Below, piece by piece: positions 8,601 through 56,266 of a DNA stretch of 64,000 nt. Under the pieces are notes generated by a model. The model worked only from the letters and a program-made list of their open reading frames with translations. It had not been told where the DNA came from and ran no database searches. Source of the stretch: a virus; the IMG/VR virus record IMGVR_UViG_3300034101_003795, positions 27,953 to 91,952 of that record; one strand, 5' to 3'. The stretch's first letter is position 1. Every line of letters starts with the position of its first letter. Both the position numbers and the translations under genes were made by a program.

Positions 8601-9310
8601 ATGATGCTTCTAGTACTGCTGGTGGAACATTTGTAAACGAAGGGACAAAAAATAAATTTATGGATAATTGGTTATCAAAACCAGAAAGTTGGCCAGTTGG
8701 ACCAATAGATTTAAGATATGACCGAGACAGAGGAGTGTGGGTCGCCCCAGCCAAAGAAAGAATACTATTAGCTAAATTAACAGATAAACTAGATGCCTCT
8801 GGTGTGGTTAATGCTACATTAATGAATGAGACTGTTGAAAGTATGAAATTTCATGAGAACTATAAGGTTTGGGGACCGAATGGAGAAGATATTATGTCAG
8901 ATATTGAATCTCATGAAATAAAAATATATAATTATTTAGATAATTCATTTGATAAGGACGAAGTAGTTTATGCTGTTTGGAATGATGATAAATATCTTGC
9001 TATTCCTAAAGGAGGAACTGGCTCTACAATTAGAGTTGGAAAATTTAGTGATGAAAGCTGGAACATAGGAGCAATAGCAAGAGTATCAGCTTATAAAGTA
9101 AATCCAGACTCAGATCCTGAATCTAATATCAATGATCCATCTATTGGTGGTCTTGTCGTAGAGGATGATGTTAAATATGAAAATTTATATGCTTTAAATT
9201 TATTTGCTGATATTGAGAACAGCGGAAGCAAATCACTTTGGGTTGCAGTAGCTAATATTGGTAAAGATTTCCATATACTGATAGATGCTGAATGCTCAAC
9301 TGAAGAATAA
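5618..9310 (+). CDS. large tail/baseplate structural protein, family not identified
   Basis: The 1230-residue product starts two bases after the adhesin stop, behind an AAGGATTAATA ribosome site, so the two are co-translated. The N-terminal 130 residues (RAVRFQCNSLVFGGIINSV, then YKLKIIDPRKVLENV) resemble the opening beta domain of baseplate-hub or tail-associated proteins, in which a short beta-strand repeat contacts the tube. There are scattered Cys residues but no signal peptide or transmembrane segment. The rest is glycine-, serine- and asparagine-rich with aromatic-rich patches. Position and size indicate a virion protein, most likely part of the tail or baseplate. The hub assignment is a weak pattern resemblance. 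Confidence 0.5.
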   Translation: MTTTRRTINANMSLSYALGGNVFGGDIRLSNFALNIGIGSQSSNLDVEFIYDTCGQAGGVSRPTVGRAVRFQCNSLVFGGIINSVSYGESAGGSVYKLKIIDPRKVLENVSILLQGYYCDYGIQAPNFINIASFIENGVAICPPGEDTQNWPRVGNCNNFGRINSANGVFLREALAGIQRKNPFVYTTTGEPLYLNLGKIIAITPGYAKTEASTSSLLALITQACDEGACDFIVSLVGTIIDIMPINRGTQPPSGLIGQVISSAQNTGTLISGEVGEEELYENSNKVVLGENVQYLRTIQSPGNVAMMLGTDLNDNAIRVYNTNFRVPINISTLAAGFASQGYSLPYMFPVSEEEILAAGTTELWKLYGLANENSLSGNLLSLLNMREPLGDTLKAFNLLLNTSNLNDFNKSLDAVNNITSAVAKARNAHLYELAYEWFAQDFISTYYGKKWLVPISYICANPAPQSNKVADGGYINLSDVPSDGGWPNDYNLLGLTYGYNTSLFETPDGRLSGFLRMNTAQSLPRRIGLRSVNFVVSPEGLDPSSMLIVGQNCYVKVQTEGEMFRRSPSVAEVLITSPFLSMTPVINTDIVSEGLRTLAVILGDGTLPRKIEKSETGASMKSGANIFKMGKPCCSFDYVSVPMKSNIYVYGPWTGSKGSIGSTTVEQTNLSPWNYGGFSTMNMVGQALAQNGLRLSNKTESGSMTLAEPPGYSIEYFINAAIVINSIGVNFNSGGATTTYSFQTYSQKFGQYGKAISDSIQKSVKIRSEILGYIRTQRRNLITASNSIRKEMARFDIKQGKYAFQKQPPATSKSSPSYLLVGGYYDPSSADKAYTVGLNSTNQFETSTEGPPFQNLAIMSLDGLLSPVSLQGRGGRLPRFATSWGYEKGDKSHTTRPCMPPIDNQEPLAINRKYLNPIVSRTFLQTWEGRGSSNSFNIRVIGFGQNNSNNSIFNVSDTKYDNETDFGFYALRGPLVLQSWGYDTEGKPIPNAVDDASSTAGGTFVNEGTKNKFMDNWLSKPESWPVGPIDLRYDRDRGVWVAPAKERILLAKLTDKLDASGVVNATLMNETVESMKFHENYKVWGPNGEDIMSDIESHEIKIYNYLDNSFDKDEVVYAVWNDDKYLAIPKGGTGSTIRVGKFSDESWNIGAIARVSAYKVNPDSDPESNINDPSIGGLVVEDDVKYENLYALNLFADIENSGSKSLWVAVANIGKDFHILIDAECSTEE

Positions 9311-9349
9311 TATATAGTGATTATTTACATCTAAAATTTTTAAGAAATA

Positions 9350-9895
9350 TTATGCTAATGAAAAACCTTTTTCTGGCACATTAGTTCTACCATCATATTC
9401 ACAGATACTTATTGAACCGGGTGTTTGCCAAGCACTAGAGGTATACATGTCAACGCTTGACCAAGCCATACGATAATTTTCAAATTGCGATTGAGGATAC
9501 ACAGAACGCCAATTAACGTTATTTATTATGGTTGGTCCTTTTACAACAACAAATGGATCTCCGACATAATTTGTGGCCGCATACAGGCAAGCAACAAAAC
9601 CATCTTTTATGGCAATTGAATCAAAAGAACCGGCAATCGCCCGTGGAAAAGAGTTAGAGGCTATATCATAACATCCGGCGTCAAGAATATCCATGTAAAC
9701 CCTCGGGCAACAACAAGAATTAAATGGCTGATCTGATTGACCGCCTACGCATAGACCACCCATTAAGGCTCCGCTTGCACAAAAAACCCTAGGAACTTTA
9801 CGTCTATTGCCTTTACAACCAAAACACTTACAGCCTTTTTTACAAAAACAGTCATACGCACCAAAAAATAAACCTCCTTTAGTAAAACTAGACAT
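9350..9895 (-). CDS. Cys-rich protein with a beta/gamma-crystallin-like domain
   Basis: The 181-residue protein has an unusual cysteine-dense first third (CFCKKGCKCFGCKG near residues 16-29, then CCCP near 61-64) that could bind metal or be disulfide-linked. The middle (residues about 92-130: SIAIKDGFVACLYAATNYVG, then a GP...INNVNW stretch) follows the Greek-key pattern of beta/gamma-crystallins, where 'vtLYe..nf.G' strands alternate with 'kvSSikv' strands. It is the last minus-strand gene before the convergent junction and overlaps the upstream gene by one base. Crystallin-like modules bind calcium and stabilise secreted or surface proteins, so a virion or surface role is inferred only. Confidence 0.45.
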   Translation of the reverse strand: MSSFTKGGLFFGAYDCFCKKGCKCFGCKGNRRKVPRVFCASGALMGGLCVGGQSDQPFNSCCCPRVYMDILDAGCYDIASNSFPRAIAGSFDSIAIKDGFVACLYAATNYVGDPFVVVKGPTIINNVNWRSVYPQSQFENYRMAWSSVDMYTSSAWQTPGSISICEYDGRTNVPEKGFSLA

Positions 9896-10215
9896 TACTT
9901 ATCCTTACTCCATTTGTGCCAACCCTTATTTGATAAGTAATTTCCTTCGTCATCTTTTCGCTTTGGGAATAAAGTGCCACCCTTTTTGTGTTGTCCAAAT
10001 CCTAGGATTGCCCCACAATCATTACATCGTAATTCATAATAGTCATTCCCGTCAACATTTCTAACAACAAAACGAATATTATCTTTGCCACACAAACCAC
10101 ACTTTTCTTCACCAAAAATTTCTTGAATTAGGGCCAATTCTTTAAAAATTTCTTTTTGGCCTGCTCCTTCTAATTCAAAAGCTAATTTATTATTGATATT
10201 ATATATAACTTTCAT
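9895..10215 (-). CDS. small zinc-ribbon protein, conserved in phages
   Basis: This 106-residue protein begins with a short beta-rich segment ending in an acidic helix. It then carries a four-cysteine zinc ribbon (CGLCG at about 39-43 and CNDCG near 64-68) and a tail with GFGQHKKGGTLFPKRKDDEG. The same architecture recurs as a hypothetical protein in many environmental phage genomes, and the basic tail would suit nucleic-acid binding. It starts behind a clear GGAGA site at about 10224. It follows the 229-residue gene closely, which suggests the two are expressed together. Function unknown. Confidence 0.6.
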   Translation of the reverse strand: MKVIYNINNKLAFELEGAGQKEIFKELALIQEIFGEEKCGLCGKDNIRFVVRNVDGNDYYELRCNDCGAILGFGQHKKGGTLFPKRKDDEGNYLSNKGWHKWSKDK

Positions 10216-10227
10216 AATATTCTCCTA

Positions 10228-38002: not shown

Positions 38003-38656
38003 TTAAGTAGAAAACTCATTAAATAATCTTACACCATTTAGTGTATTTGTCCTAATTTGGTCAATTTTATATTTATTTAATTTTTCTATATGATTTTTAT
38101 TCCAAATATTGCCAGTAAAAATGGTGCTTATTCCTGTTTTTTCTTTGAGCAAAATACTAGCAATAATATTATCATCAATATTATCTATCATATTACCAGT
38201 AGATGGATAGACACTTTTAAGACCAAATTCTTGTATAATATCACAAGCCTTGATTAAAGAATGATGAGTAAAAATTCTATATTCTAGATAGTATGTTATT
38301 GGAATATTATTAATTGCACAAATATCTATATTGCTTTTTATGTCGTTTCTAATTTTATCATATTTTCTATTACTTAATAAATTGTTTTGAATAACTATTT
38401 CTATCTTTTGAGCGCCATTAACTATGGCGTTTTTGACAGCAGAGTTTCTTGATTTAGTATCAGAAAGTCCGTGTGGATAGTCTATAGAATTAGAAACTAT
38501 TATCTGGGTATCTTTAACTAGAGACTTAACTAGTTTAGTATAGAAGTATGGTATAGATATACAATTTATATTTAATGATTGGGCATTTAAAATTTTAACT
38601 TTTATTTCTTCTTCGTCCAAATCAAGATCATAGATGGCATACTCTATATTTTTCAT
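38003..38656 (-). CDS. deoxyribose-phosphate aldolase-like protein lacking the Schiff-base lysine
   Basis: The 217-residue TIM-barrel-like protein follows the DeoC order: SIDYPHGLSDTKSRNSAVKN (56-75, for GfPHG...K..E...A), NGAQKIEIVI (80-89, for GA.EiD.V), a helix, SVYPSTGNM (148-156, for fiKTSTG) and ISTIFTGNI at the end. The Schiff-base lysine position is Tyr150 and the aspartate of the active site is Glu86; the second lysine region is also gone. So it looks like a catalytically altered or dead aldolase. It overlaps the ClpP-like gene by four bases. Confidence 0.6.
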   Translation of the reverse strand: MKNIEYAIYDLDLDEEEIKVKILNAQSLNINCISIPYFYTKLVKSLVKDTQIIVSNSIDYPHGLSDTKSRNSAVKNAIVNGAQKIEIVIQNNLLSNRKYDKIRNDIKSNIDICAINNIPITYYLEYRIFTHHSLIKACDIIQEFGLKSVYPSTGNMIDNIDDNIIASILLKEKTGISTIFTGNIWNKNHIEKLNKYKIDQIRTNTLNGVRLFNEFST

Positions 38657-39333
38657 TGTTTTTTAATTATTGTTTTTAAGTAGTCTATATTTGGATACTT
38701 TTTACTACCCAGTATACCATCTGCAAAACCATAATGAACTGCTTCGTCAGCAGTTAAAATCCAATCTCTCTTTGTTGCTAATTGAGTAACGATATGTTTG
38801 CGAACAATCATTCTCTTCCAATTTTTTTCTTTGGCTATTCTACTACTAATACACTTTTCAGTGAATATTTCTATCATCTTTTCGCTCTCTTTTTCACTCC
38901 ACTGAACCATACTTAGGGCCGCTTTATGTTCATTATCAATACTTAATGATCCATAATGGATTAAAAAATTAGTATTAGGAGTTAATATTCTTAAATCAGC
39001 AGCTTGTAATAAAACACTACTACTAGATTCTACTTTTGCATATGCTATTATAGCAACTTTGCTTTTGCTTGCTTTTATAGTATCATATATGCCTAAACAA
39101 TCCTGCCAATCGCCACCAGGAAGATGCATATGAACAACTATTGGTTCTAGAGATATAAGATTTAAATATCTTAAATTTTTTTCAAATGTTATTGCTGATC
39201 TATAATCAACACCAACTTCTTCAGAGTCCGCAAAATGAGAATGTAAGTATAGTTCTCTATTTTTAATATCTATATTATAGTTATGAAGAAGAGTGAGATC
39301 CACATCTGTTTCTTTGTTCTCTGTTTGGGTCAT
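38653..39333 (-). CDS. ClpP-like serine protease
   Basis: Of 226 residues, HMHLPGGDWQDCLGIYDTI (68-86) corresponds to the ClpP 'iNSPGG....g.aIyD.i' motif. The nucleophile region is AKVESSSSVLLQAADLRILT (99-118, Ser at 104-106) and the His is in FLIHYGS (123-129). The Ser-His pair is present; the Asp is not obvious. It could mature capsid proteins or act as a free protease ring. Unlike housekeeping ClpP, an ATPase partner is not adjacent. Confidence 0.75.
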   Translation of the reverse strand: MTQTENKETDVDLTLLHNYNIDIKNRELYLHSHFADSEEVGVDYRSAITFEKNLRYLNLISLEPIVVHMHLPGGDWQDCLGIYDTIKASKSKVAIIAYAKVESSSSVLLQAADLRILTPNTNFLIHYGSLSIDNEHKAALSMVQWSEKESEKMIEIFTEKCISSRIAKEKNWKRMIVRKHIVTQLATKRDWILTADEAVHYGFADGILGSKKYPNIDYLKTIIKKQ

Positions 39334-42274: not shown

Positions 42275-43351
42275 TTAATTTCCATAGAGATCGTTATAAA
42301 TAATATTAGCTGTATTTGTCCAAGTATATTGTTTGGCCGTATTAAATCCGTTTATATTATCTTTGATATTATTATTATACACGAACCTCATATGTTCAAC
42401 CAATTGTTCTATCTGTCTATCTCCAAGATCAGCCCATTTTCCATAACCATCAAAAAACTTATCATCTTGTGCTTCTGTTAAGTTATCAATATCTACTAGA
42501 TAAGAATTATCTTTAGTCGCATATTCTGTATGAGCAGAGTAATTGGTTAGAATAACAGGCTTGTTCATAGCCATAACTTCCATAACTTCATTATTCCATC
42601 CTTCTGCTCTTGCTGGAAAAACAGCACAATCTGATAACGAAATAATACCAGCTAAATCTGAATGATTAGGTAGTCTCGGTAGGATTCTAATCTTTTTACC
42701 AAGCTTACTATTTAGATACATCTTAGCCCATTTTTCATTGTCTTCTTGAGATAAGAAAGGATTATGATTAACCATCCACAACTCAACGTCATCAGCTTCT
42801 GTAAACGCATTATTAAATGCTTCTAATAAAATATCATGTCCTTTTCTAAGTTCCCATTTTCCAATATTAATAAATACGTAGCTATTATTCTCTTTTTTCA
42901 TAGGTGGTTTGGCATGAATATTGAATATATTATGATTAACCCCTAAAGGAGAAATGATAATATTTGTTGTAACACCATTGTTTAATAGTATATCTTTTGC
43001 CCATTTTGAAGCAACAAAGACAGTATCTGTACAATTAATCATGTGTGTCTCTAATGGTTTCAACCTATCAATTTCAAAGAATGTAAGGGCTCCATATTTA
43101 CCTTTACCAATCCTAGTAGCTAAATCATATTGATGCCATATTTTCAGATATGGTGAATTTGGATCATAATTAATTATTTTATTAGTATCTTCTACAATAG
43201 ATTTTTTATCGTCTTCACTATCTAACGATACTGAACCACCTATTGGAAATAGTGTTATATCAAGTTTAGGTCTAAGTTCTTTATAAATATTTAATGAGGT
43301 TATACCGTACCCTGTTAATCCAAGCGGACAATTTAAATTAAGTTTTTGCAT
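42275..43351 (-). CDS. GT4-family glycosyltransferase
   Basis: The 358-residue GT-B protein has NCPLGLTGYGITSLNIYKEL at the start, a linker with TVFVASKWAKDILLNNG, GKWELRKGHDILLEAF near 168 and the donor site CAVFPARAEGWNNEVMEVMA near 244-263 followed by KPVILTN. I place the start at ATG 43351, nine bases after AGGA; an ATG two codons upstream is too close to the ribosome site. It overlaps guaC by 14 bases. Likely substrate is a nucleotide sugar from the cluster. Confidence 0.75.
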   Translation of the reverse strand: MQKLNLNCPLGLTGYGITSLNIYKELRPKLDITLFPIGGSVSLDSEDDKKSIVEDTNKIINYDPNSPYLKIWHQYDLATRIGKGKYGALTFFEIDRLKPLETHMINCTDTVFVASKWAKDILLNNGVTTNIIISPLGVNHNIFNIHAKPPMKKENNSYVFINIGKWELRKGHDILLEAFNNAFTEADDVELWMVNHNPFLSQEDNEKWAKMYLNSKLGKKIRILPRLPNHSDLAGIISLSDCAVFPARAEGWNNEVMEVMAMNKPVILTNYSAHTEYATKDNSYLVDIDNLTEAQDDKFFDGYGKWADLGDRQIEQLVEHMRFVYNNNIKDNINGFNTAKQYTWTNTANIIYNDLYGN

Positions 43352-44474
43352 TTTCATAAATCCTATTGTGTGTGTCGTTTACTAAAATAAATGTTGTTTT
43401 TTTACCGAAGTCTTTAATTTTATCGGCCCCAATATATGTGCAAGCACTACGAAGTCCTCCACAAATATCTGATATAATATATTCTGCTGGGCCTTTATAT
43501 GCAACGGTAACTGATTTACCTTCTGCTGTTCTATATTTTGCTACTCCATTATGATGTTTATTCATAGCGTCTAATGAACTCATTCCATAATATTTTAAAG
43601 AAATTTTTCTTTTTATGTTATCGTTTTCTGGATCTACAGGTTGCCAAAAACCAGGAGAGCAAGATCCTGCTTCAACTAAATATTCATATTTCCATTCTCC
43701 TTCACACTCATCTGTACCAGCAAATATGCTGCCTAGCATAACAAAATCAGCATTTCCACCAAATGCTTTGCAAATATCTCCCACTACTTTACAGCCTCCA
43801 TCAGAGCAAACGTGTCCACCAAGACCATGAGCAGCGTCTGTACATTCCATCACAGCACTTAATTGAGGGTATCCCACGCCAGTTTTTAAACGGGTGGTAC
43901 ATACACTACCCGAACCTATACCAACCTTGACTATATCGACCTTGCCATGAATTATTAATTCTTCTGTCATTTCTGGAGTAACCACGTTTCCAGCCATAAT
44001 GATAATTTCTTCATATAGTTTACGAATATTACTTATTATTTTTACAAATTGTTCTGTATATCCATTTGCAACATCGATACAAATATTAGGCAATGGATAA
44101 TTAAATTTTCTTATTTGATTAAATACTTCTGTTAATTTCTCTAAGTCCTTTTGTCCAGTCCCAACAGAATAGAAAACTAAATCTTTGTTAACAATACTAG
44201 GGTCAGTATAAAAAGCAACATATTCATTTATCTTATAGTGCTTATGTAAGCAGGTTATGGTCTGATGTTTACATAGAGACTCAGCCATATTAAATGTTCC
44301 AACAGTATCCATATTAGCAACCATAATAGGAACACATAATAGTTCTCTTGTAGAATACTTAAAAGAAAAATTCCTATTCAAACATACTTCTGATCGACTA
44401 TTAAGTGTTGATCTTTTTGGGCGAATAAGAACATCATCAAAATCTAGTTTAATCTCATTAATTATTTTTTGCAT
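43338..44474 (-). CDS. guaC: GMP reductase
   Basis: The 378-residue barrel enzyme has LDFDDVLIRPKRSTLNSRSE near 10-29, the catalytic Cys loop GIGSGSVCTTR near 186, GVGYPQLSAVMECTDAAHG, CSDGGCKVVGDICKAFGG and ADFVMLGSIFAG. These distinguish GMP reductase from IMP dehydrogenase, and no CBS domains are present. It converts GMP to IMP with NADPH, recycling guanine nucleotides or drawing down GTP. The gene overlaps the deoxyribosyltransferase-like gene by 17 bases. Confidence 0.88.
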   Translation of the reverse strand: MQKIINEIKLDFDDVLIRPKRSTLNSRSEVCLNRNFSFKYSTRELLCVPIMVANMDTVGTFNMAESLCKHQTITCLHKHYKINEYVAFYTDPSIVNKDLVFYSVGTGQKDLEKLTEVFNQIRKFNYPLPNICIDVANGYTEQFVKIISNIRKLYEEIIIMAGNVVTPEMTEELIIHGKVDIVKVGIGSGSVCTTRLKTGVGYPQLSAVMECTDAAHGLGGHVCSDGGCKVVGDICKAFGGNADFVMLGSIFAGTDECEGEWKYEYLVEAGSCSPGFWQPVDPENDNIKRKISLKYYGMSSLDAMNKHHNGVAKYRTAEGKSVTVAYKGPAEYIISDICGGLRSACTYIGADKIKDFGKKTTFILVNDTHNRIYENAKT

Positions 44475-44997
44475 CGAAAAAGTACCATCTATTAAAAGTA
44501 TTAATTTTTGAATTTGTATTTATATATTTAAGATATGATTTAATTTCATCCCATGAAGAAAAAATCATTTCATGAGGAATAGTTCCAAATAGCCAATCTG
44601 GTGATCTATGTTTGCCTTGAACCATATGAATCAATATTGGTTTTTTTTGTCGATTACCCCAAAAAATTTCTTCATATGTGCCACAAGGATGTATATCGAG
44701 ATCAAGATTTACGATTAAAAAATCACTAATATCCACTAGTCTAAGATCAACAGATCGTATAGTTTTCATTAAGTCTGATAGTTCAGAATATTTTTGATCT
44801 TTTTTAAGTTGTTGTTTTAATAGCTGTGTTTTTTCATCTTCTAATCCTATTGTGCTTGGCTTTTTGATGGGATTAAAGACAATAACGCCTAAATCTTGAA
44901 GAAAAGGAGTTATGCTATCTCTCCAGCCATTTCCTCTGTCTGCTACTCTATCCATAGCACCAGCCAGATAAACTCTTTGATTTTGAAGACGTTTCAT
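44458..44997 (-). CDS. nucleoside 2-deoxyribosyltransferase-like protein
   Basis: From ATG 44997 the 179-residue protein begins KRLQNQRVYLAGAMDRVADR...GWRDSITPFLQDLGVIVFNP. A later DISDFLIVNLD is followed by HPCGTYEEIFWGNRQKKPIL, in which Glu of GTYEE sits where the catalytic nucleophile lies in this family. It may exchange bases between deoxynucleosides or hydrolyse deoxynucleotides. An ATG at 45030 is another possible start. It lies between GMP reductase and the aminotransferase-like gene, suggesting nucleotide-pool control. Confidence 0.65.
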   Translation of the reverse strand: MKRLQNQRVYLAGAMDRVADRGNGWRDSITPFLQDLGVIVFNPIKKPSTIGLEDEKTQLLKQQLKKDQKYSELSDLMKTIRSVDLRLVDISDFLIVNLDLDIHPCGTYEEIFWGNRQKKPILIHMVQGKHRSPDWLFGTIPHEMIFSSWDEIKSYLKYINTNSKINTFNRWYFFDAKNN

Positions 44998-45047
44998 TAA
45001 TATATTTAAAAAAGAAAACAACAGAGACATAATGGTGTCGCACAATA

Positions 45048-45101: not shown

Positions 45102-45118
45102 TAATAAAAAATTTATTA
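45102..45118 (-). terminator. weak A+T hairpin after the aminotransferase-like gene
   Basis: TAATAAA and TTTATTA form a 7-bp stem with a three-base loop at the gene end. No G+C pairs are present, so termination is doubtful. Confidence 0.25.
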
Positions 45119-46258
45119 TCCAGAAATGAGGGTTTTGATATGATTGCATACATAATCTACATCATCAATAGTCATACCATGATGAGCACCAAGCAAGAAT
45201 CCATTTTTCATAATTTGATCTGAATTAGGGAATTCTTGTAGATATTGTCTGTAAACTGGATGTCTTGTTATATTGCCAGCAAAAGTTACTCTGGTCTGAA
45301 TATTTTGATTTTCTAAATAATTCAATAATTCATATCTTTTATTGTACTGTAATGGTATAGCCAACCAGTTTGGATTAAGTGAATCATCTGGCATAACTAA
45401 TTCTTCAATATGCTGTAAATTACTTATATATCTTTCAAAATTATTACGACGAATTTGTTTAAATTTCTCAAATCTATTTAATTGTACTAGACCAAATGCA
45501 GCATTCATTTCAGAGCTTTTGAAGTTATATCCTAGAACACCATATAAGAATTTATAATCATATGGTATACCATCAACACTATGATTAAATCTATCAGCCA
45601 TTGCCTCAGAATTATCTCCTATTCTACCCCAATCTCTGAATTGTAAGCAAACATCTCTATATTTAGAATTATTAAACATCACCATACCACCAGATCCACC
45701 AGCAGTGATTATATGACTAGCATAAAAACTAGTAGTACTGATGTCGCTTTCAGTAGTATGGGTAATAGTATCAGCAGAGTCTTCAATTAAAATTATATCT
45801 TCTCTATTAATTTTTTGCAGTTCTATTTTTAATCGTTGCCAATCTGGTTTATTTCCAATAAGATTTGGCAACATAATTACTTTTATAGTATCATCTACTA
45901 ATTCTAGTATAGAATCTATAGATGGTACATAGGTTGTAAGTTCCACATCACAAAATACTGGTTCTAAACCCAATTGAATCATTGGTGCAACAGTGGTGGA
46001 GAACGTACACGCTGGTGTAATAATGCGACTACCTTTTGGTAATTGTAAACTAGCTAATGCTAATAAACAAGCTGATGATCCAGAGTTGACGAATACCCCA
46101 TATTTTTTACCGAATACAGCAGATATCTTTTGTTCAAATTCTACACTTCTTGGTCCGAATCCTGCTAACCATCCGTCTTGCAAACAATCTTTTACTGCAT
46201 CAATTTCTTCTTGACCGTATGATTCAAATTGATTTGGTGCATACCATACTTTTTTCAT
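45116..46258 (-). CDS. ColD/RfbH-like sugar 3-dehydratase (DegT family, His in place of PLP lysine)
   Basis: The 380-residue protein follows the DegT/RfbH order: YGVFVNSGSSACLLALASL, PACTFSTTVAPMIQLGLEPV, IEDSADTI, then SFYASHIITAGGSGGMVMF where the PLP-binding Lys of aminotransferases is His. Further parts read FRDWGRIG, IPYDYKFLYGVLGYNFKSSE, FAGNITRHP and LLGAHHGMTIDDVDYV, closely paralleling RfbH and ColD. His instead of Lys is the hallmark of 3-deoxygenating enzymes. It would remove the C3 hydroxyl from an NDP-4-keto-6-deoxyhexose. It overlaps the reductase gene by 35 bases. Confidence 0.82.
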   Translation of the reverse strand: MKKVWYAPNQFESYGQEEIDAVKDCLQDGWLAGFGPRSVEFEQKISAVFGKKYGVFVNSGSSACLLALASLQLPKGSRIITPACTFSTTVAPMIQLGLEPVFCDVELTTYVPSIDSILELVDDTIKVIMLPNLIGNKPDWQRLKIELQKINREDIILIEDSADTITHTTESDISTTSFYASHIITAGGSGGMVMFNNSKYRDVCLQFRDWGRIGDNSEAMADRFNHSVDGIPYDYKFLYGVLGYNFKSSEMNAAFGLVQLNRFEKFKQIRRNNFERYISNLQHIEELVMPDDSLNPNWLAIPLQYNKRYELLNYLENQNIQTRVTFAGNITRHPVYRQYLQEFPNSDQIMKNGFLLGAHHGMTIDDVDYVCNHIKTLISG

Positions 46259-47036
46259 AAAATCTTTCTTGTATTTTTTTAAATGTTAATTTGATTCCAT
46301 CAAACAGACCTATTTGCTGTATTCCTAGATCATAATAATTTCCTATATATGGACTGTCATGTTTTTTTTCATTAATAATAATATCTACTTTAGTATCATT
46401 GAGTTGATTAATAAAATTTGCTATGTCAGATAGCCAGTACTTATCCTTATAAACACAATCCAATTCTTTTGGCATATTATTATTTGTAATAAATAAATTA
46501 ATGATTTGTATTAAATCTAACATATATATAAAATCCATTTGTTTATTAGAGTGTATTATTAAATTTTTTTTATTTAAGTATCTATCTAAATTAGATTTAA
46601 TAAATCTTGTTTCAATTTCATCCTCATCAAAAACTCCAAAAATTCTAAGATTAAAAAAATTATTAGTATCTAAAATAATATTACTAATTATTTTTTTAGA
46701 AAAACCATAAGGACTATGAGTTGCAGATAATTCTGCTCCAGATCCAAATGAAATTAATTTATTAAATTTATGTTTATATCTATAAAGATTATAAAATATA
46801 GTTAAATTATCACTAATAACTTTTACGGTGTCTGTTTTTAGTCTACTTCCCCCAACAGCGGCTGAGTGAATAACACAATCGAAAAATCCATGTTCATTAA
46901 AAATTGACTCTACACATGAAGTATCTGTTAAATCACAAATAGTCCTATTGATTAGGACTAATGTATGATACTTATATAAGTATTTATATATAGCCTGTCC
47001 TAAATATCCATTACTACCAGTAATAAGTATCTTCAT
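46224..47036 (-). CDS. NAD-dependent epimerase/reductase-like SDR
   Basis: From ATG 47036 the 270-residue protein begins MKILITGSNGYLGQAIYKYL (GxxGxxG at 7-13). It has VIHSAAVGGS, FGSGAEL, SPYGFSKKI (YxxxK) and DFIYMLDLIQIINLF. This is the short extended-SDR pattern of GDP-fucose synthase/YerF-like reductases. It probably reduces or epimerises a keto group on an NDP sugar from the preceding steps. The start directly follows the upstream stop (TAAGATG). Confidence 0.75.
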   Translation of the reverse strand: MKILITGSNGYLGQAIYKYLYKYHTLVLINRTICDLTDTSCVESIFNEHGFFDCVIHSAAVGGSRLKTDTVKVISDNLTIFYNLYRYKHKFNKLISFGSGAELSATHSPYGFSKKIISNIILDTNNFFNLRIFGVFDEDEIETRFIKSNLDRYLNKKNLIIHSNKQMDFIYMLDLIQIINLFITNNNMPKELDCVYKDKYWLSDIANFINQLNDTKVDIIINEKKHDSPYIGNYYDLGIQQIGLFDGIKLTFKKIQERFYEKSMVCTKSI

Positions 47037-47037
47037 C

Positions 47038-47568
47038 TTATTTAGATTTATAAAAATCAGAAAATTCAACTAATATTGTGCTGCCATTTCTTGTTAAAGC
47101 ATTAGTATATTCAGTTACTATTTGAGAAGGCTCATATAATTCTGATATGTGTATATTTTTAAGCATTTTTTGAAATGCTTCACTAAAGTTGCCTTTATGC
47201 TGACATTGAGGGTCTATAGGATACTCACTACCTACAGCAACTCTTATAATAACTTTTGGATTATATCTACCCCCTGACATTGTAACAAATTTATCTAAAT
47301 GATTCACTATTTGATCTGTAGCCATCAATAAGAAATTCCATCTTGGAAATGTCGAAATAGGAATTAGCCCTGCTATCGCCATACCATTTGCCATACCAGA
47401 CTGTAGATATTCAGCAACAGGTAGTTCTAATTTTTTATTTGAAGATATATGTTTCATGGAATCAAATAGTCCAGTACCTTCGTACTCAACTGCTTGACCA
47501 ATAAAAATAGTATTAGAATTTTTAGCTAAAAGACTCATAGCCTTTTGTATTTCTTCATAATATTTCAT
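47038..47568 (-). CDS. thiamine-diphosphate enzyme beta subunit (E1-beta Pyr domain only)
   Basis: The 176-residue protein contains just the Pyr domain: NSNTIFIGQAVEYEGTGLFD, LELPVAEYLQSGMANGMAIAG (the Glu that activates the cofactor sits in LPVAE), FLLMATDQIVNHL, VTMSGGRYNPKVIIRVAVGS and STILVEFSDF. The C-terminal transketolase-type domain of ordinary E1-beta is absent. Together with the alpha gene (one base overlap) it would form a minimal two-chain enzyme. Confidence 0.78.
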   Translation of the reverse strand: MKYYEEIQKAMSLLAKNSNTIFIGQAVEYEGTGLFDSMKHISSNKKLELPVAEYLQSGMANGMAIAGLIPISTFPRWNFLLMATDQIVNHLDKFVTMSGGRYNPKVIIRVAVGSEYPIDPQCQHKGNFSEAFQKMLKNIHISELYEPSQIVTEYTNALTRNGSTILVEFSDFYKSK

Positions 47569-48197
47569 TAGAATTGAACCCTTACACCTGCTCCGGCATG
47601 TGGATATTTTGTATTTGTATATTGATAGTAATAAAGATGTTTTTGTTTTAATACTCCTCCATTATATGATTCATTTAAATAGTATGGAGTATCTCTACCC
47701 CAAATCATAGGAGTTGGTGTGCATACAGATTTATGATTATCTTCTACTATAAATACAATTGGTAAATCATGATTTAGACTATATTTATATGCTTCATGAA
47801 AAGCTCCAGTTTCAGCACTCATGTCCCCAACCCAACACCACACTTTATTGTTTTGATTTTTAATCTTGATAGCAAGAGCGATACCCGTTGCAATAGATGG
47901 TATACCTCCAACTATAGAACTACATATAAATTTATATTCCGGTAAGTTCATTACCATTGATTTACCTAATAAAATTTGTTCTTTAACTATTTCTGATGGT
48001 ATGCCTTTCAACAATGCTTGATAATGATTTCTCCATGTACAACATACCCAGTCATTCTCTATATCAATATCTTTAAAGATTTCAATCATTTGATCTTCAT
48101 TATCATGATACAGATGTATTGGGGCTTTAATTTTGCCAGTATTAAAGCAATTTCCTATATCGTTTTCAAAATTGATTAAATCTTCTTTAGTTACCAT
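47568..48197 (-). CDS. thiamine-diphosphate enzyme alpha subunit (E1-alpha PP domain, short)
   Basis: The 209-residue protein has CCTWRNHYQALLKGIPSE, ICSSIVGGIPSIATGIALAI and a cofactor motif VWCWVGDMSAETGAFHEAYK with LPIVFIVEDN. This corresponds to the GDG...N site of E1-alpha, with GDM instead of GDG. It is about 100 residues shorter than pyruvate dehydrogenase E1-alpha. With the beta gene it likely decarboxylates a 2-keto acid and transfers a two-carbon unit. It overlaps the 4,6-dehydratase gene by seven bases. Confidence 0.78.
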   Translation of the reverse strand: MVTKEDLINFENDIGNCFNTGKIKAPIHLYHDNEDQMIEIFKDIDIENDWVCCTWRNHYQALLKGIPSEIVKEQILLGKSMVMNLPEYKFICSSIVGGIPSIATGIALAIKIKNQNNKVWCWVGDMSAETGAFHEAYKYSLNHDLPIVFIVEDNHKSVCTPTPMIWGRDTPYYLNESYNGGVLKQKHLYYYQYTNTKYPHAGAGVRVQF

Positions 48198-49153
48198 ATA
48201 AATTTGTGTTTATAATATTTTACTATATCAATTATATCTGAATCAAAAGAATGTGTACTTCGCCATCCTAATTGTTTTAATTTATCGTCATTCAATGCGT
48301 ATCTTAAATCTTGGCCATCACGATTATATGAAAGATCTAAATACATATTAATATCAATATTGTCATTATTAAAATAATTTTTGATAATTTTTTCTACTGT
48401 AGTAATATTTGTTTGTTCAAAACCTCCACAGATATTATATATTTCATTTTTAGTAATATTATGATTATTAATGATAACATCTATTGAGTTAGCAGTATCT
48501 TCTACATGAAGCCAATTTCTAATTGGTGTTCCATTATTATGTAATGGAATTTTTCGATCTAAAGATAAAAATTTACATGTTTTAGGTATTAATTTTTCAA
48601 CATATTGACCAATACCATAATTATTTGTTGGTCTAACTATTGTATATTCTATATTGTATGTTCGTGACCATGCTTGAATTAACATATCTGCTGCCGCTTT
48701 AGTAGCAGAATAGGGATTACTGGGTTTTAGAGTATCAGTTTCTATATGTTCACCGGATAAGATATCTCCGTATACCTCATCAGTACTAAAATGTATCAGC
48801 CTTGGAGTGTGCTTGTGTTCTTGACGATAGTTCCTAAGCAATTCTAATAAATTTTGTACGCCACCGATATTCGATTTAATAAAGTCATCACTTTTAACAA
48901 TAGAATTGCCAACATGAGTTTCTGCTGCTACATTAATAATGTAATCACAATCATATAAGAATTCTATGTCATTAATATCTTTATGTTCAAAAACAAATGT
49001 AGGATATTGTTTAAATTCAGTTAAGAGATCTATATTTGCTGCATAGGTTATTTTATCAATACCTCTGATATAGTATCCTTTGTCTAAAAATAATCTGGTA
49101 ACATAGGAGCCTATGAATCCCAAACATCCAGTAATATAGATTATTTTTTGCAT
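48191..49153 (-). CDS. rmlB: NDP-glucose 4,6-dehydratase (RmlB-like)
   Basis: The 320-residue extended SDR has GCLGFIGSY (9-17), NVAAETHVGNSI near 74, FSTDEVYGD near 122 (Asp-Glu catalytic pair), NPYSATKAAADML near 146 (YxxxK), RPTNNYGIGQY and PIRNWLHVEDT. This is the RmlB pattern. It makes NDP-4-keto-6-deoxy-glucose, the entry intermediate for the next enzymes. Its ATG is five bases from a TATGAT box, so the transcript should be leaderless. Confidence 0.87.
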   Translation of the reverse strand: MQKIIYITGCLGFIGSYVTRLFLDKGYYIRGIDKITYAANIDLLTEFKQYPTFVFEHKDINDIEFLYDCDYIINVAAETHVGNSIVKSDDFIKSNIGGVQNLLELLRNYRQEHKHTPRLIHFSTDEVYGDILSGEHIETDTLKPSNPYSATKAAADMLIQAWSRTYNIEYTIVRPTNNYGIGQYVEKLIPKTCKFLSLDRKIPLHNNGTPIRNWLHVEDTANSIDVIINNHNITKNEIYNICGGFEQTNITTVEKIIKNYFNNDNIDINMYLDLSYNRDGQDLRYALNDDKLKQLGWRSTHSFDSDIIDIVKYYKHKFIW

Positions 49154-49158: not shown

Positions 49159-49186
49159 ATCATATCTGATCCAGATCAGTTGTCAA
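49159..49186 (-). promoter_or_regulatory. promoter of the 4,6-dehydratase gene (leaderless)
   Basis: TTGACA (49181-49186) and TATGAT (49159-49164) have a 16-base spacer. The start codon A at 49153 lies at the expected transcription start. The -35 is inside the end of the preceding GT34-like gene. Confidence 0.85.
49166..49179. promoter_or_regulatory. palindromic operator candidate in the promoter spacer
   Basis: CTGATC-CA-GATCAG is a perfect six-base-arm palindrome filling the -35/-10 spacer of the dehydratase promoter. A dimeric repressor bound here would block RNA polymerase. It also contains the stop codon of the GT34-like gene, which limits how it could have arisen. Confidence 0.4.
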
Positions 49187-49901
49187 GATCGCCTTTTACA
49201 TGTTGTAAAAAATTTAAAGCTAAATTAATTCTATTATCATTATTCATACCTGGCCAATGTACAAGAAAATCACCTTCTGACCATGATCCTGGATTACCTT
49301 TACAGTCTAATGCTCTTTGATGCCAGGGTGATGGATATAAGTGATATAAGTATGAATTCATAAATTTTTGATTCATTGGTTTGATTATATTTTTGTATTC
49401 AGTATATTTATGATATAAATCTATCATTGCTCCTTGTTCTGCCCATGCTCTTGCTCCCCCATCTGGTAATTTTAATCCATGATCAATAGGTTTTCCAGTA
49501 TCATCTATATATTCATTATATAAACTTAAAATATGTTCAAAATATTTAATAGCTTGAGAACTATTTTTAATTAAAAAAGAATCAGAATTAAAATCCCATA
49601 CATCATAACTAATAATGAATTCATAATTATCGTCTATCATACTCTCCAAAGTAATATCATAATTAGTAATCATAGTATCGCAACCACACCAATATATCCA
49701 ATCATATTTATTAGTTTTTAAAGTCTTTAATACAAAATCTATTTTGGCAAATCCTATATCTTTATATGTAAAATTATTTGTCTGTACTATAAGATCATAA
49801 TTATGTTTTTCGCAATATTTTCTTTTGTTATACTCTGTAGTTACTACTGCTAATGGCAATATGTTTTTTGTATATATACTTAATATAGCAAATTTATTCA
49901 T
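49176..49901 (-). CDS. GT34-like galactosyltransferase-type glycosyltransferase
   Basis: The 241-residue GT-A protein has LAVVTTEYNKRKYCEKHNYD near 18-37, KTNKYDWIYWCGCDTMITNY near 62-81 and WAEQGAMIDLYHKYTEYKNI near 153, with GDFLVHWPGM near 215. This is the GMA12/MNN10 (GT34) order. The usual DxD metal motif is replaced by CGCD, so metal coordination would depend on one Asp. It begins the run that supplies the promoter of the dehydratase. Confidence 0.65.
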   Translation of the reverse strand: MNKFAILSIYTKNILPLAVVTTEYNKRKYCEKHNYDLIVQTNNFTYKDIGFAKIDFVLKTLKTNKYDWIYWCGCDTMITNYDITLESMIDDNYEFIISYDVWDFNSDSFLIKNSSQAIKYFEHILSLYNEYIDDTGKPIDHGLKLPDGGARAWAEQGAMIDLYHKYTEYKNIIKPMNQKFMNSYLYHLYPSPWHQRALDCKGNPGSWSEGDFLVHWPGMNNDNRINLALNFLQHVKGDLDN

Positions 49902-50615: not shown

Positions 50616-50631
50616 TTTTTATATATCCTTT
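50613..50631 (-). promoter_or_regulatory. ribosome site and ATT start of the GT9-like gene
   Basis: AAAGGA (50626-50631) is followed by a 10-base A+T spacer and ATT AAA ATC. The frame has a TAA two codons earlier and no ATG/GTG/TTG before the conserved strand. Confidence 0.45.
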
Positions 50632-51175
50632 ATATTAATTTTAATACTGCTTCAGATATTGAACTAGGATCAATAGTATTTATTCTATTTAATGGATCGT
50701 CTTCATTAAAGATAGGTTTATTTTTATCATTAGGTTCAAATAAAATAATTTTATTTTTATTAGAGAAATATGGACCAGTATTATTAGCAAAATGACTATA
50801 TAAACCTACAATCTTAATATCATAATATGATGCTAAGTGTATTGGGAAACTATCGTATCCAAGATGAAGCGAAGAGTTTTTGATTAAAAAGGCCAGACTA
50901 TTATAATTAGTTTTGCCAAGATATGATGTATCAACATTATCATATTTTTTGTCTGATGAACAACCAATTTGAATAATATGATATTTAAAATTTATATTAT
51001 TTATTAAATTATCTATCACTATTTGCCATTTGTCATATTGACGAGTTGAACCTTTAGGATTAAATCCATGAAAAGTTATATAGTTTTTTTCTGGCAATAA
51101 AATTGGTTCTTCATGAATAAAACATTTATCTATCTTACATCCAGCAACACAAGCATATGTTTCTAATAAATGCAT
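50630..51175 (-). CDS. C-terminal half of a GT9-like glycosyltransferase
   Basis: From ATG 51175, behind AAGGAATAAATTT, the 181 residues begin HLLETYACVAGCKIDKCFIH and contain NYITFHGFNPKGSTRQYDKW (sugar-nucleotide domain) and LGYDSFPIHLASYYDIKIVG, the donor loop of GT9 proteins. The first Rossmann half is missing here but is supplied by the gene immediately upstream (51180-51602). So one glycosyltransferase appears to be made as two chains. Confidence 0.6.
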   Translation of the reverse strand: MHLLETYACVAGCKIDKCFIHEEPILLPEKNYITFHGFNPKGSTRQYDKWQIVIDNLINNINFKYHIIQIGCSSDKKYDNVDTSYLGKTNYNSLAFLIKNSSLHLGYDSFPIHLASYYDIKIVGLYSHFANNTGPYFSNKNKIILFEPNDKNKPIFNEDDPLNRINTIDPSSISEAVLKLI

Positions 51176-51179
51176 AAAT

Positions 51180-51602
51180 TTATTCCTTAGAATAACGAAG
51201 ATCAAAAGCGACACAACCAATACCATTATTTAGATAATTAATCAATCTTTGTGTCATTACACTAGCCATAATTGATATATCAAACAATCCGACCCATTTA
51301 CCGTATCCCTCCATAAACGGTTGTATATCCATTATATTATCATATTCTAATGTTTTTTTAATATAAGGATTATTTTTTAAGATATCAAAATATTCTTTTT
51401 TACAAGCAAAATAGATATCGCAATCATCCATATCTAGCTCATTAGCTTTATTCTGATATATCTCTTTTAGAGATCTTAGTAAGCTGGTAGCAAGAAATAT
51501 ATCTCCAGCACTTTCTGGTAGAATAAATAATATTTTTAAATTATTGTTATCTACATCAATTTCTGTTAAGATTTTTTGTAATATTTCGTTAGTATTAAGC
51601 AT
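51180..51602 (-). CDS. N-terminal half of a GT9-like glycosyltransferase
   Basis: The 140 residues have LKILFILPESAGDIFLATSL near 23-42, the heptosyltransferase opening, and an acceptor-side helix, then stop after CVAFDLRYSKE. The downstream gene in another frame (offset by one base) continues with the donor domain. The pair could be a real gene split with its own ribosome site or an ancestral frameshift. It overlaps the nucleotidyltransferase gene by eight bases. Confidence 0.6.
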   Translation of the reverse strand: MLNTNEILQKILTEIDVDNNNLKILFILPESAGDIFLATSLLRSLKEIYQNKANELDMDDCDIYFACKKEYFDILKNNPYIKKTLEYDNIMDIQPFMEGYGKWVGLFDISIMASVMTQRLINYLNNGIGCVAFDLRYSKE

Positions 51603-51987
51603 AATAATATTTTATTAAATTAGATGTTGATTTATCAGGATTTTTTTTAAAAAAAATAACTTTTGCTATATCAGATCCTATGACTCTTTTATTTTTATAA
51701 TCATCTCCGACTACAATTATATCTATATTAGAATTTTTTATTGTATTTACCAAATTTTGTTCATCATTAAAAATAACTACTTCATCAATATACTTAATAC
51801 TTTCTAGAAATAATTTACGATCTGATTCATTATTAATAGGTCTATCATAACCTTTTAAAGATTTTACTCGTAAATCACTATCTATTCCAACGGTCAGATG
51901 ATCTCCTAATCCTTTAGCATATTTTAATAAATCAATATGTCCTATATGCAAAATATCAAAACATCCATTAGTCCATACTTTAGTCAT
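51595..51987 (-). CDS. HldE-type cytidylyl/adenylyltransferase
   Basis: The 130-residue protein has the HxGH signature TNGCFDILHIGHIDLLKYAK (6-25), LTVGIDSDLRVKSLKG and KSTSNLI, as in the nucleotidyltransferase domain of HldE/RfaE and glycerol-3-phosphate cytidylyltransferase. It would activate a sugar-1-phosphate (ADP- or CDP-). In Escherichia coli HldE the kinase and this domain are fused; here they are separate genes overlapping by four bases. Confidence 0.82.
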   Translation of the reverse strand: MTKVWTNGCFDILHIGHIDLLKYAKGLGDHLTVGIDSDLRVKSLKGYDRPINNESDRKLFLESIKYIDEVVIFNDEQNLVNTIKNSNIDIIVVGDDYKNKRVIGSDIAKVIFFKKNPDKSTSNLIKYYYA

Positions 51988-52751
51988 ATCGTTGTGACCC
52001 CAAATTTAGATACTACTTTTGCCGAACACACATTAGCAAACCTTATTGATTCTTTTATATTAGAAGTTTCAATATATTTGACTACTAATGATGCCAAAAA
52101 TGTATCTCCAGCACCACAGACATCTCTTAGAAAAACAATATCTGTTGGAAAATGTTCAATAGTTGTTGAAGATTTTTCATAAAGAGTCGCACCATGCTCA
52201 CCATTGGTAACTATAATAGATGACTTTTTCCTAATTGTATCTATATCATAGATATTATCTTGATATTCCTTATTATTAATTTTAATAAAATCAATGCCTT
52301 CAAGCATTTGTGAGACTAATTTTTTTTTAGTATCTATAAAAATAGTACTATTATGTTTTTTATGATTTGCAATATATTTTATGTCTTCTTCTGTTAAAAA
52401 TCCTTTACAGTAATCAGATATTATAATATAATCATATATAGAAAAATCATATTTATTTATATCAATACGGTTACATTTATCATTAATATCTTGTCTAAAG
52501 ATAATTGTATTATATTTAGTATCAATAAATCTACGTTTAATAATTTTTATTTCTGGTTTTATATGATTTATATTTAGAGTAGGATCTATTGCTTTTAAAT
52601 TATTATAAACATTACCTGACATACCAAAATTTTCTTTTATTATACCACTATCTAAAAAACATAATGCAGATGCTTCGGGACAAACTCTATCACAATACCC
52701 GTAAATATATTCATCAATACATATTTCTCCTATCAATAATATTTTTTTCAT
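51984..52751 (-). CDS. PfkB-family sugar kinase (HldE kinase domain-like)
   Basis: The 255-residue kinase has ILLIGEICIDEYIYGYCDRV at the start, an early GMSGNV loop, DYIIISDYCKGFLTEE, SIIVTNGEHGATLYEKS and the catalytic GAGDTFLASLV (Asp) near 221. This matches the ribokinase-fold HldE kinase domain, which phosphorylates heptose-7-phosphate at C1. Substrate here is not established. It overlaps the cupin gene by four bases. Confidence 0.8.
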   Translation of the reverse strand: MKKILLIGEICIDEYIYGYCDRVCPEASALCFLDSGIIKENFGMSGNVYNNLKAIDPTLNINHIKPEIKIIKRRFIDTKYNTIIFRQDINDKCNRIDINKYDFSIYDYIIISDYCKGFLTEEDIKYIANHKKHNSTIFIDTKKKLVSQMLEGIDFIKINNKEYQDNIYDIDTIRKKSSIIVTNGEHGATLYEKSSTTIEHFPTDIVFLRDVCGAGDTFLASLVVKYIETSNIKESIRFANVCSAKVVSKFGVTTI

Positions 52752-54437: not shown

Positions 54438-55202
54438 CTACCTATCCATCTCTTCTATGTTCAAATTAATCCATTCTATATGATCACTAATTCTAGTGTG
54501 TCCTGATTCATCTCCATATGTTGAGTCTGGTTTTTTATCAATAGCCATTACGCATGAGTTGATTCCAGCAAGCCTGTCATCTATGAATAAACCACCCCCA
54601 CTGTCACCAGAAGAAATTAAAAACTCAAGGTCAGATGGGCTTGTATCGCTCATATGACGAGATGGTGTGCATATCAACAGACCTCTTTCTATCTGGTCTA
54701 TAGTATTTGATCCAGCCCTTCTCTCTGTGTCAGAGTAAATACAACCAGAATCAAATGTTCCATTTAAACCAAATCCACTAATTGTACATTTTTTATTAAC
54801 TTCATTGTTTTCTTGATATAACACTGGATAGGATTCTAGACCTATATCTTCATTAAGTGAGCATATTGCTATATCATACCAACCAAAATTATCTTCTTCA
54901 AAATCTCTATGACAAACTATATTTTTTACATGTATTTTTTTATTATTAATATGAATAACACACTTATCTGCATTCTTAACAACATGAGCAGCTGTTAATA
55001 TTATTCTTTTTCTTATAGCAACAGAAGATGCACAAAATATTTTGCCATCTCTATAAGAACCACATAATCTTCCAACATGTGGAAATTTTCTTCCAAAATC
55101 TATATATCTACTATCTTCAACTAAAGGATGTCGCGTCCCAGCATATCCTATATTAGATAATATGATCAAAAAGAATAGAATTATTAATTTAATTAGTCTC
55201 AT
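54438..55202 (-). CDS. secreted trypsin-like serine protease
   Basis: From ATG 55202 (GTGGAG ribosome site) the 254-residue protein has a hydrophobic signal segment (LIKLIILFFLIILSNIGYAG), then His in LTAAHVV near 73, Asp in WYDIAIC near 110 and Ser in SSGDSGGGLF near 201. This is the complete S1 triad with the GDSGGG oxyanion motif, and there are six or more cysteines that could form disulfides. Phage-encoded S1 proteases are rare. It may be exported or attack host or competitor surface proteins. Confidence 0.82.
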   Translation of the reverse strand: MRLIKLIILFFLIILSNIGYAGTRHPLVEDSRYIDFGRKFPHVGRLCGSYRDGKIFCASSVAIRKRIILTAAHVVKNADKCVIHINNKKIHVKNIVCHRDFEEDNFGWYDIAICSLNEDIGLESYPVLYQENNEVNKKCTISGFGLNGTFDSGCIYSDTERRAGSNTIDQIERGLLICTPSRHMSDTSPSDLEFLISSGDSGGGLFIDDRLAGINSCVMAIDKKPDSTYGDESGHTRISDHIEWINLNIEEMDR

Positions 55203-55264
55203 TTCTAACTCCACTTACTGGTGGAATTGATATCCAAACTAATTAATACACCCTATTATAGATT

Positions 55265-56266
55265 TTATAATACTTTTGATGCTATTAAACATCCTTTAGA
55301 AACAGCATGTAATGGATCTGATGCGTGTTTTACTTCTTTTATTGATAGTGGAAAATTATTTTCTTGTAATTTTTTAGTAAAAATATCCACATATCCTTTG
55401 GCTTGTGATGTGCCGCCAGCAACCACAATAGTCAATGGATTTTTAAACTTAGGTAATAACTTATGGTCTGTTAAAGCATGAGATAGTTGTTTTGTTGTAT
55501 AATCAATTAATCTATCATAGTATGAAGAAACGGCAGCCAGAATAGGATTATCATTAGGTTCACCTATATTAAAATCACTACCCTCTTTCTCTGCTTGAAC
55601 AACACTGTCCGTTTCACCAGTTGCAACAGCACTCATTCTATCAACCCAGTCTCCAGATTTTGTGGTACTAAAGACAACGGTTGGTTCACCATTAAGCATA
55701 ACACAAACATTTGTCATACCAGCACCACAACTAATTGCTATACCAGTATAATCATCGTTTTCTAACTCAGCATAACATAACGCTTCTGCTTCATTAATTG
55801 CTTTTGCGTCATATCCACATTCTGACAATACGGTTTTTATAACATCCTCATGATAGCCCACATCAAAATCCTCATCTTCTTGATCAACTGGTTGTGCAGG
55901 AACACAGAATACCAATTTTTCAAAGGGCTCGGATGATTCCCCGACTACTTCTTTCAAAATAAATGCTAATATTCTTTTGGCGTCTTTTTCTTTTGAAGAA
56001 ACAACACCCCTATACATTGGTCTTTTTGCTGTATCGTTTCTCTCAACCGCTTTTTCTATAGCATCTTTTCCTAGTATAATAAACGACCCATCACTATCTT
56101 TTATGAAAGTTTTTCCAGATAGTCCTTTTTCTATCATTTTTGTGGCAACGACTGTAGTTGGTTTTATAATATAAAAGGCATCTCTAAAATCCTTATAGAC
56201 AACTCCATCATCAGAATCTTGAGATAAAACAATAAAACTTGTACCAACATCTAGTCCCTTTGCCAT
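55265..56266 (-). CDS. actin-like ATPase (ParM/MreB/StbA family)
   Basis: The 333-residue protein has phosphate-1 GLDVGTSFIVLSQ near 4-16, phosphate-2 IAISCGAGMTNVCVMLNG near 175-192 and adenosine motif VVAGGTSQAKGY near 287-298, as in actin/Hsp70-fold ATPases. The size matches ParM-type proteins. Such proteins form filaments that segregate plasmids or position phage DNA. No obvious ParR-like adaptor is annotated, although the next gene (56269-56577) encodes a small anchored protein. Confidence 0.78.
   Translation of the reverse strand: MAKGLDVGTSFIVLSQDSDDGVVYKDFRDAFYIIKPTTVVATKMIEKGLSGKTFIKDSDGSFIILGKDAIEKAVERNDTAKRPMYRGVVSSKEKDAKRILAFILKEVVGESSEPFEKLVFCVPAQPVDQEDEDFDVGYHEDVIKTVLSECGYDAKAINEAEALCYAELENDDYTGIAISCGAGMTNVCVMLNGEPTVVFSTTKSGDWVDRMSAVATGETDSVVQAEKEGSDFNIGEPNDNPILAAVSSYYDRLIDYTTKQLSHALTDHKLLPKFKNPLTIVVAGGTSQAKGYVDIFTKKLQENNFPLSIKEVKHASDPLHAVSKGCLIASKVL

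Follow-up and report, generated by a model that had tools for sequence, protein, structure and literature searches.

A minimal two-gene E1-type enzyme, a probable carboligase, shares an exchangeable slot with YerE-type and split-transketolase-type enzymes in a phage deoxysugar cassette

We here describe a five-gene cassette from a 64,000-nucleotide stretch of viral DNA (the window; bases 27953-91952 of the 91,952-base IMG/VR virus record IMGVR_UViG_3300034101_003795), in which a minimal two-gene thiamine diphosphate (ThDP) enzyme likely helps to build a C4-branched deoxyhexose linked to a nucleoside diphosphate (NDP). The viral origin of the window is sound because the phage replication genes for a DNA polymerase and a ribonucleotide reductase are present. 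The cassette (45116-49153, minus strand) encodes, in order of transcription, an RmlB-type NDP-glucose 4,6-dehydratase (48191-49153, 320 residues), an E1-alpha-like protein with the ThDP-binding (PP) domain (47568-48197, 209 residues), an E1-beta-like protein with the pyrimidine-binding (PYR) domain (47038-47568, 176 residues), an RmlD/epimerase-like reductase of the short-chain dehydrogenase/reductase (SDR) family (46224-47036 from an ATG start, the listed reading frame beginning at TTG, 47069; 270 residues) and a ColD/RfbH-like NDP-4-keto-6-deoxyhexose 3-dehydratase (45116-46258, 380 residues). Neighbouring genes overlap, the E1-alpha gene reaching 7 nt into the RmlB gene, or lie 1 nt apart, so that the five look like a single, translationally coupled unit. 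The pathway itself is of a known kind; the larger finding is an exchangeable carboligase slot, in which the E1 pair is genetically equivalent to YerE-type and split-transketolase-type carboligases.

The strongest evidence for function comes from converse scans of viral contigs, with the short dehydratase and a long RfbH as queries. Most dehydratase loci carry no E1 pair and have another ThDP enzyme in its position. Three ThDP types occupy the slot, namely the E1 pair, a split transketolase/DXS-type pair cut down to the PP and PYR domains (families k18 and k21, 202 and 159 residues) and a TPP_enzyme_N/M/C protein (k6), sometimes encoded by two genes (k6 and k35), here called the YerE/AHAS type. 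The k6 enzyme of locus L118 scores 557 bits against JanthE (8rph), a characterised YerE-like ketone carboligase (PMC12188165), and 240 against acetolactate synthase, the corresponding values being 386 and 265 in L005. Among the 56 unique loci of the RfbH scan, a ThDP enzyme lies within six genes in 48 (YerE/AHAS type 23, transketolase type 16, E1 9), and the other eight, one of them truncated, have none. The slot is less uniform around the short dehydratase, where 41 unique loci include 13 with the YerE/AHAS type and eight with the transketolase type, and a further 14 that are not truncated have no ThDP gene. In a control set of phage sugar loci found via an unrelated gene, that of GDP-mannose 4,6-dehydratase, a ThDP enzyme is present in 6 of 12 loci with RfbH and in 3 of 62 without it (p=3e-4).

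The exchange takes place between near-identical partners. Loci L104, L105 and L106 have k20 upstream, the short dehydratase, the SDR and k29 downstream in common, and the position between dehydratase and SDR is filled by a YerE/AHAS-type gene in L104, the E1 pair in L105 and the split transketolase (9140-10218) in L106. The dehydratases of L105 and L106 are 97.6% identical and their SDRs 89.8%; the dehydratase of L104 is 92% identical, and its slot enzyme is a large protein of the YerE/AHAS family. The same exchange is found beside RfbH (L174, L160 and L164), and the window SDR is 40-47% identical to those beside YerE-type and transketolase-type carboligases. Mapped onto a tree of 140 dehydratases, the three carboligase types require at least 29 changes, an approximate figure from a quick tree with low shallow support, and the well-supported branches alone force 10-14 changes per group. 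A 2025 review lists the same three ThDP superfamilies as known or proposed ketone-branching enzymes, the transketolase role being 'still pending' (PMC12247030). The original prediction, that a two-gene E1-type enzyme replaces YerE in this phage, thus gains support from the position that the E1 pair and the YerE/JanthE-like enzyme share beside dehydratase and SDR; it is to be widened, since many viral contigs besides that of this phage carry such a pair, as one of three interchangeable options. We conclude that the E1 pair is a phage analogue of YerE, and hold with good confidence that it acts as a keto-sugar carboligase.

We propose that the cassette operates as follows. The RmlB-type enzyme would convert NDP-glucose, most likely dTDP-glucose of the host, to NDP-4-keto-6-deoxyglucose, from which the ColD-like enzyme, of the histidine type and free of an iron-sulfur (Fe-S) cluster, would remove the C3 hydroxyl using pyridoxamine phosphate (PMP) and glutamate, giving NDP-4-keto-3,6-dideoxyhexose. 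On ThDP, the E1 pair would then decarboxylate a 2-keto acid, most likely pyruvate, and transfer the two-carbon unit to the C4 ketone, yielding a tertiary alcohol that bears an acetyl branch; neither E2 nor lipoamide would be needed, since the parts that serve E2 are absent. Reduction of the acetyl ketone by the SDR would produce a hydroxyethyl branch, i.e. a yersiniose-like octose, and a glycosyltransferase of phage or host would place the sugar on a glycan. We infer all of the chemical steps, along with nucleotide, donor and destination: the RmlB, ColD-like and SDR steps from family membership, and the E1 step from the exchange with YerE-type enzymes together with the precedents of AviB1/AviB2, Pau11/Pau12 and KbDH-alpha/beta. 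As a whole, this explanation appears likely to us, and for the exact acetyl-to-hydroxyethyl product at C4 we lean only slightly in favour.

The logic of 4,6-dehydration, 3-deoxygenation, ThDP-dependent C4 branching and branch reduction is shared with the yersiniose A pathway of Yersinia pseudotuberculosis, and a 4,6-dehydratase, a His-type 3-dehydratase, a ThDP carboligase and a reductase stand in one cluster here; the likeness extends to related phages, which hold a YerE/JanthE-like enzyme in the same slot. However, the phage cassette has a two-gene E1-type carboligase instead of YerE, its dehydratase is without the Fe-S cysteines, its 4,6-dehydratase is RmlB-like (dTDP) and not of the CDP type, and it is encoded by a phage, whereas YerE acts on CDP-3,6-dideoxy-4-keto-glucose (PMC12247030, PMC4425429, PMC4753412). 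Like the phage pair, AviB1/AviB2 (avilamycin), Pau11/Pau12 (paulomycin) and KbDH-alpha/beta (kibdelomycin) are two-gene E1-alpha/E1-beta-type ThDP enzymes; they are proposed or shown to install an acetyl, i.e. two-carbon, branch on a keto-sugar with pyruvate as donor, KbDH from pyruvate only (PMC12247030, PMC4425429, PMC4753412). The phage pair fits this E1-type (alpha-KADH2) class in its two genes with ThDP motif and catalytic glutamate, and in its setting within a deoxysugar pathway that would supply a keto-sugar. It differs in that AviB, Pau and KbDH belong to actinomycete antibiotic clusters and the phage pair to a 3,6-dideoxyhexose pathway, and in subunits that are not of full length (209 and 176 residues against about 325 and 345 in Pau11 and Pau12), in a comparison of subunit length and pathway setting.

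The donor was approached through neighbouring genes. Of the 39 unique loci with the YerE/AHAS type alone, 26 contain genes for making 2-keto acids, and none of the 64 E1-only or the 25 transketolase-only loci does (26/39 against 0/89, Fisher p=8e-18 in a test that ignores relatedness). The gene list, compiled after viewing the loci and with the keto-acid role of each gene presumed, comprises PanB (ketopantoate hydroxymethyltransferase), MhpE (4-hydroxy-2-oxovalerate aldolase), a NeuB-like synthase, an HpcH/HpaI-like aldolase and a class I aminotransferase. Their restriction to the YerE/AHAS type fits the use of longer or hydroxylated keto acids as donors by ErwE and JanthE (PMC12247030), and the overall pattern fits use of pyruvate and ketose phosphates by the E1 and transketolase types. 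In the phage contigs L217, L126 and L140, an acetaldehyde dehydrogenase (MhpF type), a 4-hydroxy-2-oxovalerate aldolase or PanB lies beside the YerE/AHAS-type enzyme, where donor synthesis in situ is possible.

Among the alternatives, the one that survives best, although it is unlikely, is that the E1 pair ligates the same keto-sugar with a donor other than pyruvate, e.g. 2-oxobutyrate, a hydroxylated keto acid or a ketose phosphate, in which case the branch would not be a two-carbon acetyl or hydroxyethyl group. The sequence does not reveal the donor, and both the range of JanthE and ErwE and the fit of transketolase-type pairs in the same slot are compatible with such a reaction. However, the lack of keto-acid-making genes in E1-only loci is as expected if E1 draws on a central metabolite, and KbDH, a characterised E1-type relative, uses nothing but pyruvate. 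From the characterised relatives and the missing keto-acid genes, we infer pyruvate as the putative donor and two carbons as the probable size of the branch.

The five-gene set is conserved over a wide range of viral loci. A viral contig scan with E1-alpha yielded 107 relatives. In the 80 kept loci that were read, its partners are E1-beta (79 loci), RmlB (76), the SDR (74) and a His-type RfbH/ColD (68), a degree of conservation that rules out chance. The order of the genes varies (RfbH-E1a-E1b-SDR-RmlB, RmlB-E1a-E1b-SDR or RmlB-x-RfbH-E1a-E1b-SDR), and maintenance of the set despite this permutation reflects selection for co-function and not inherited synteny alone. The same loci bear on a second and less probable alternative, in which RmlB, ColD and SDR make an unbranched 3,6-dideoxyhexose akin to paratose, abequose or ascarylose, with an unrelated reaction left to the E1 pair. 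Some RfbH phages indeed have no ThDP gene, and in several of these loci an SDR (k87) immediately follows RfbH, which is what C4 reduction without branching would call for; elsewhere, minimal E1 pairs also occur in other contexts. However, nearly all of the 80 loci have the E1 genes within the cassette even though the order is shuffled, and the slot is exchanged only for carboligase types that are known or proposed to branch keto-sugars (PMC12247030).

Only 10 relatives were recovered by a scan of cellular genome contigs with the E1-alpha profile, the best at 55% identity and several in contigs of metagenome-assembled genomes (MAGs) that may hold viral DNA, and none of these 10 pointed to a bacterial donor with a known glycan. 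In two such loci the E1 pair is again accompanied by a DegT protein of the His type, which is its neighbour in L086 and lies about 8 kb from it in L087. A scan of a plasmid collection returned just ordinary pyruvate dehydrogenase (PDH)-like matches below 36% identity, and a viral scan with the SDR gave no matches, its peptide patterns being too variable.

The E1-alpha-like protein matches Pfam E1_dh (9e-16) and NCBIfam PDH_E1_alph_y (4e-22), with a weaker match to DXP_synthase_N, and has conserved R-N-H and GDM...EDN motifs; the E1-beta-like protein matches Transket_pyr (1e-6) and PDH E1 beta (3e-15). In place of the single-chain TPP_enzyme_N/M/C arrangement of YerE-like carboligases, the window pair has E1_dh and Transket_pyr only. 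AlphaFold2 models built from alignments of the locus sequences (mean predicted local distance difference test score 90 each) have their best PDB fold matches in E1-alpha (E 1.8e-10; human E1-alpha matched) and E1-beta (template modelling score 0.85-0.88) of PDH and branched-chain keto acid dehydrogenase (BCKDH). The profiles cover residues 48-211 of 365 in human E1-alpha, including the GD...N ThDP/Mg and R-x-H motifs, and residues 7-172 of 329 in human E1-beta; the phage E1-beta is without the transketolase C-terminal domain, and its Glu53, invariant in 25 sequences, aligns with the glutamate of the T/LP-x-x-E motif of E1-beta. Short lengths are usual among the 83-86 relatives of the two subunits. 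Judged from these alignments, the active-site halves of E1 are kept and the PDH regions that serve E2 and lipoyl transfer are gone. A remnant or phage version of PDH E1, feeding acetyl groups or NADH to central metabolism, is therefore highly improbable even though PDH/BCKDH E1 is the family of the pair by sequence and fold, and this function was rejected because all relatives lack the C-terminal parts, half of E1-alpha and one domain of E1-beta, that serve E2 docking, lipoyl access and acylation, while the genes sit within nucleotide-sugar clusters with no E2 or E3 seen. Minimal PP and PYR domains of the same kind, at 41-43% identity, are found in phrog_34187 of the cyanophages S-SM2 and P-TIM68, annotated 'transketolase central region', but there as a single fused gene with Zn-alcohol dehydrogenase and heptose-type neighbours and no adjacent RfbH/ColD match.

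The remaining enzymes were assigned by family. The 4,6-dehydratase (Pfam GDP_Man_Dehyd/Epimerase) matches NCBIfam dTDP_gluc_dehyt at 2e-84 with 283 bits (cut-off 365), against only 76 bits for CDP-glucose 4,6-dehydratase and 48 for gmd, and retains the STDEVYG and YxxxK (YSATK) motifs; because it scores as RmlB, the nucleotide is probably dTDP. The 3-dehydratase (Pfam DegT_DnrJ_EryC1, 6e-70; PDB matches RfbH 3bcx, 3e-56, and ColD 3gr9, 6e-35) shares with ColD and RfbH (E1) the DegT fold and a histidine in place of the pyridoxal phosphate (PLP) lysine. Its His182 aligns with the catalytic histidine (H220) of RfbH/E1 (3bcx), the lysine of the H-to-K mutant 3bb8 (position 220) and the histidine of ColD, and histidine holds this position in all 74 aligned ColD/RfbH-like sequences from E1 loci. 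Fifty-nine of the relatives are of the RfbH type, of about 440 residues with conserved Fe-S cysteines, and ten, including the window protein, form a short type of 380 residues without them. The window enzyme is thus intermediate, being closer to RfbH by score but without the RfbH cysteines, and has the His-type DegT fold free of Fe-S that marks ColD. A ColD-type enzyme needs just PMP and glutamate, and by analogy the window dehydratase would need only these. The SDR (Pfam Epimerase, 4e-17) carries GxxGxxG and YxxxK, and is proposed to be a YerF-like reductase of the acetyl branch. The order of the five genes, the E1 halves without the usual extra domains and the histidine replacing the PLP lysine, all anticipated in the original prediction, are hence borne out by coordinates, Pfam, fold matches and alignments; the 3-deoxygenation is to be taken as ColD-like and not RfbH-like, since the Fe-S cysteines are absent.

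Several observations weigh against the proposed pathway. No sugar-1-phosphate nucleotidyltransferase was found across the 92-kb record, so that NDP-glucose would have to come from the host. In 12 of the 63 unique E1 loci, some of them truncated, no RfbH/ColD is visible; 3-deoxygenation may not be universal, and such loci may make a 6-deoxy instead of a 3,6-dideoxy branched sugar. Exclusion in the slot is not strict, as seven unique loci have both an E1 pair and a YerE/AHAS-type gene, and the k6 enzyme of L174 scores slightly higher against acetolactate synthase (288 bits) than against JanthE (253), for which reason k6 is better named the YerE/AHAS type overall. The SDR could act at the ring rather than at the branch. 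Finally, distant E1 pairs from cyanophages, megaphages and MAGs adjoin radical-SAM, Zn-alcohol dehydrogenase or heptose-type kinase/nucleotidyltransferase genes. The class of minimal E1 pairs thus has other roles as well, and the reaction of the distant ones need not match that of the cassette pair.

Some loci depart from the common arrangement. An insert of four genes between E1-beta and the SDR in L006, L007 and L040 (an HpcH-like aldolase, an SDR, an AroB-like cyclase and a YerE/AHAS-type enzyme) lets both carboligase types coexist there. A second, more divergent E1 pair in L014 (13787-16459) directly follows a B12-dependent radical-SAM-like protein, and a similar protein is found in the E1-pair cluster of the MAG contigs L086 and L087. 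In a 735-kb phage (L003, 8388-10606) and in archaeal and Desulfobacterales MAGs (L092, L093), radical-SAM genes interleave with or flank the minimal E1 pair in place of deoxysugar genes.

Glycosyltransferase genes flank the window cassette on both sides, all on the minus strand. Upstream lie a Glyco_transf_34-like enzyme (49176-49901; PF05637, 4e-16), a possible transferase of the branched sugar as judged by position only, and a GT9-like fragment or protein (50630-51226; PF01075, 4e-6), and downstream a GT4-like enzyme (42275-43357; weak NCBIfam GT4 matches, best 4e-10, below cut-off). The acceptor of the sugar may be the virion, the host envelope or DNA. Separately encoded HldE kinase-like and HldE adenylyltransferase-like proteins (51595-52751, minus strand) suggest a second, heptose-like activated sugar in the cluster. 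An IMPDH/GMP-reductase domain protein (43338-44474) and a weak nucleoside deoxyribosyltransferase-like protein (44458-45045), both on the minus strand, stand beside the sugar genes. Elsewhere, the phage encodes an actin homologue (55265-56266, minus strand; Pfam Volactin, 4e-65), of a family known from haloarchaea, a trypsin-like serine protease that apparently has a signal peptide (54438-55214, minus strand; Pfam Trypsin, 1e-16) and a ClpP-like protease (38653-39333). The DNA polymerase, compared for host assignment, is about 29% identical to those of many phages and singles out no host.

In conclusion, C-branched sugars occur in O-antigens and in antibiotics of actinomycetes, and our search of the literature on phage gene modules for branched sugars, ThDP enzymes or rfbH returned no description of viral C-branched sugar biosynthesis. 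The phage loci represent a natural swap experiment, in which three differently built ThDP enzymes are placed in one slot among near-identical partners, so that the function of split transketolases and minimal E1 pairs becomes directly testable; for the synthesis of tertiary alcohols, they also offer carboligases of about 385 residues. Exchange in the slot suggests variation of a rare surface sugar by phages. We consider it reasonably probable, with some reserve, that tailed phages of environmental metagenomes use a common NDP-4-keto-3,6-dideoxyhexose trunk and swappable ThDP carboligases, i.e. a minimal E1 pair, a minimal split transketolase or a YerE/JanthE-like enzyme, which may or may not have a keto-acid supply of its own, to diversify a branched sugar on the phage or host surface in a glycan arms race.

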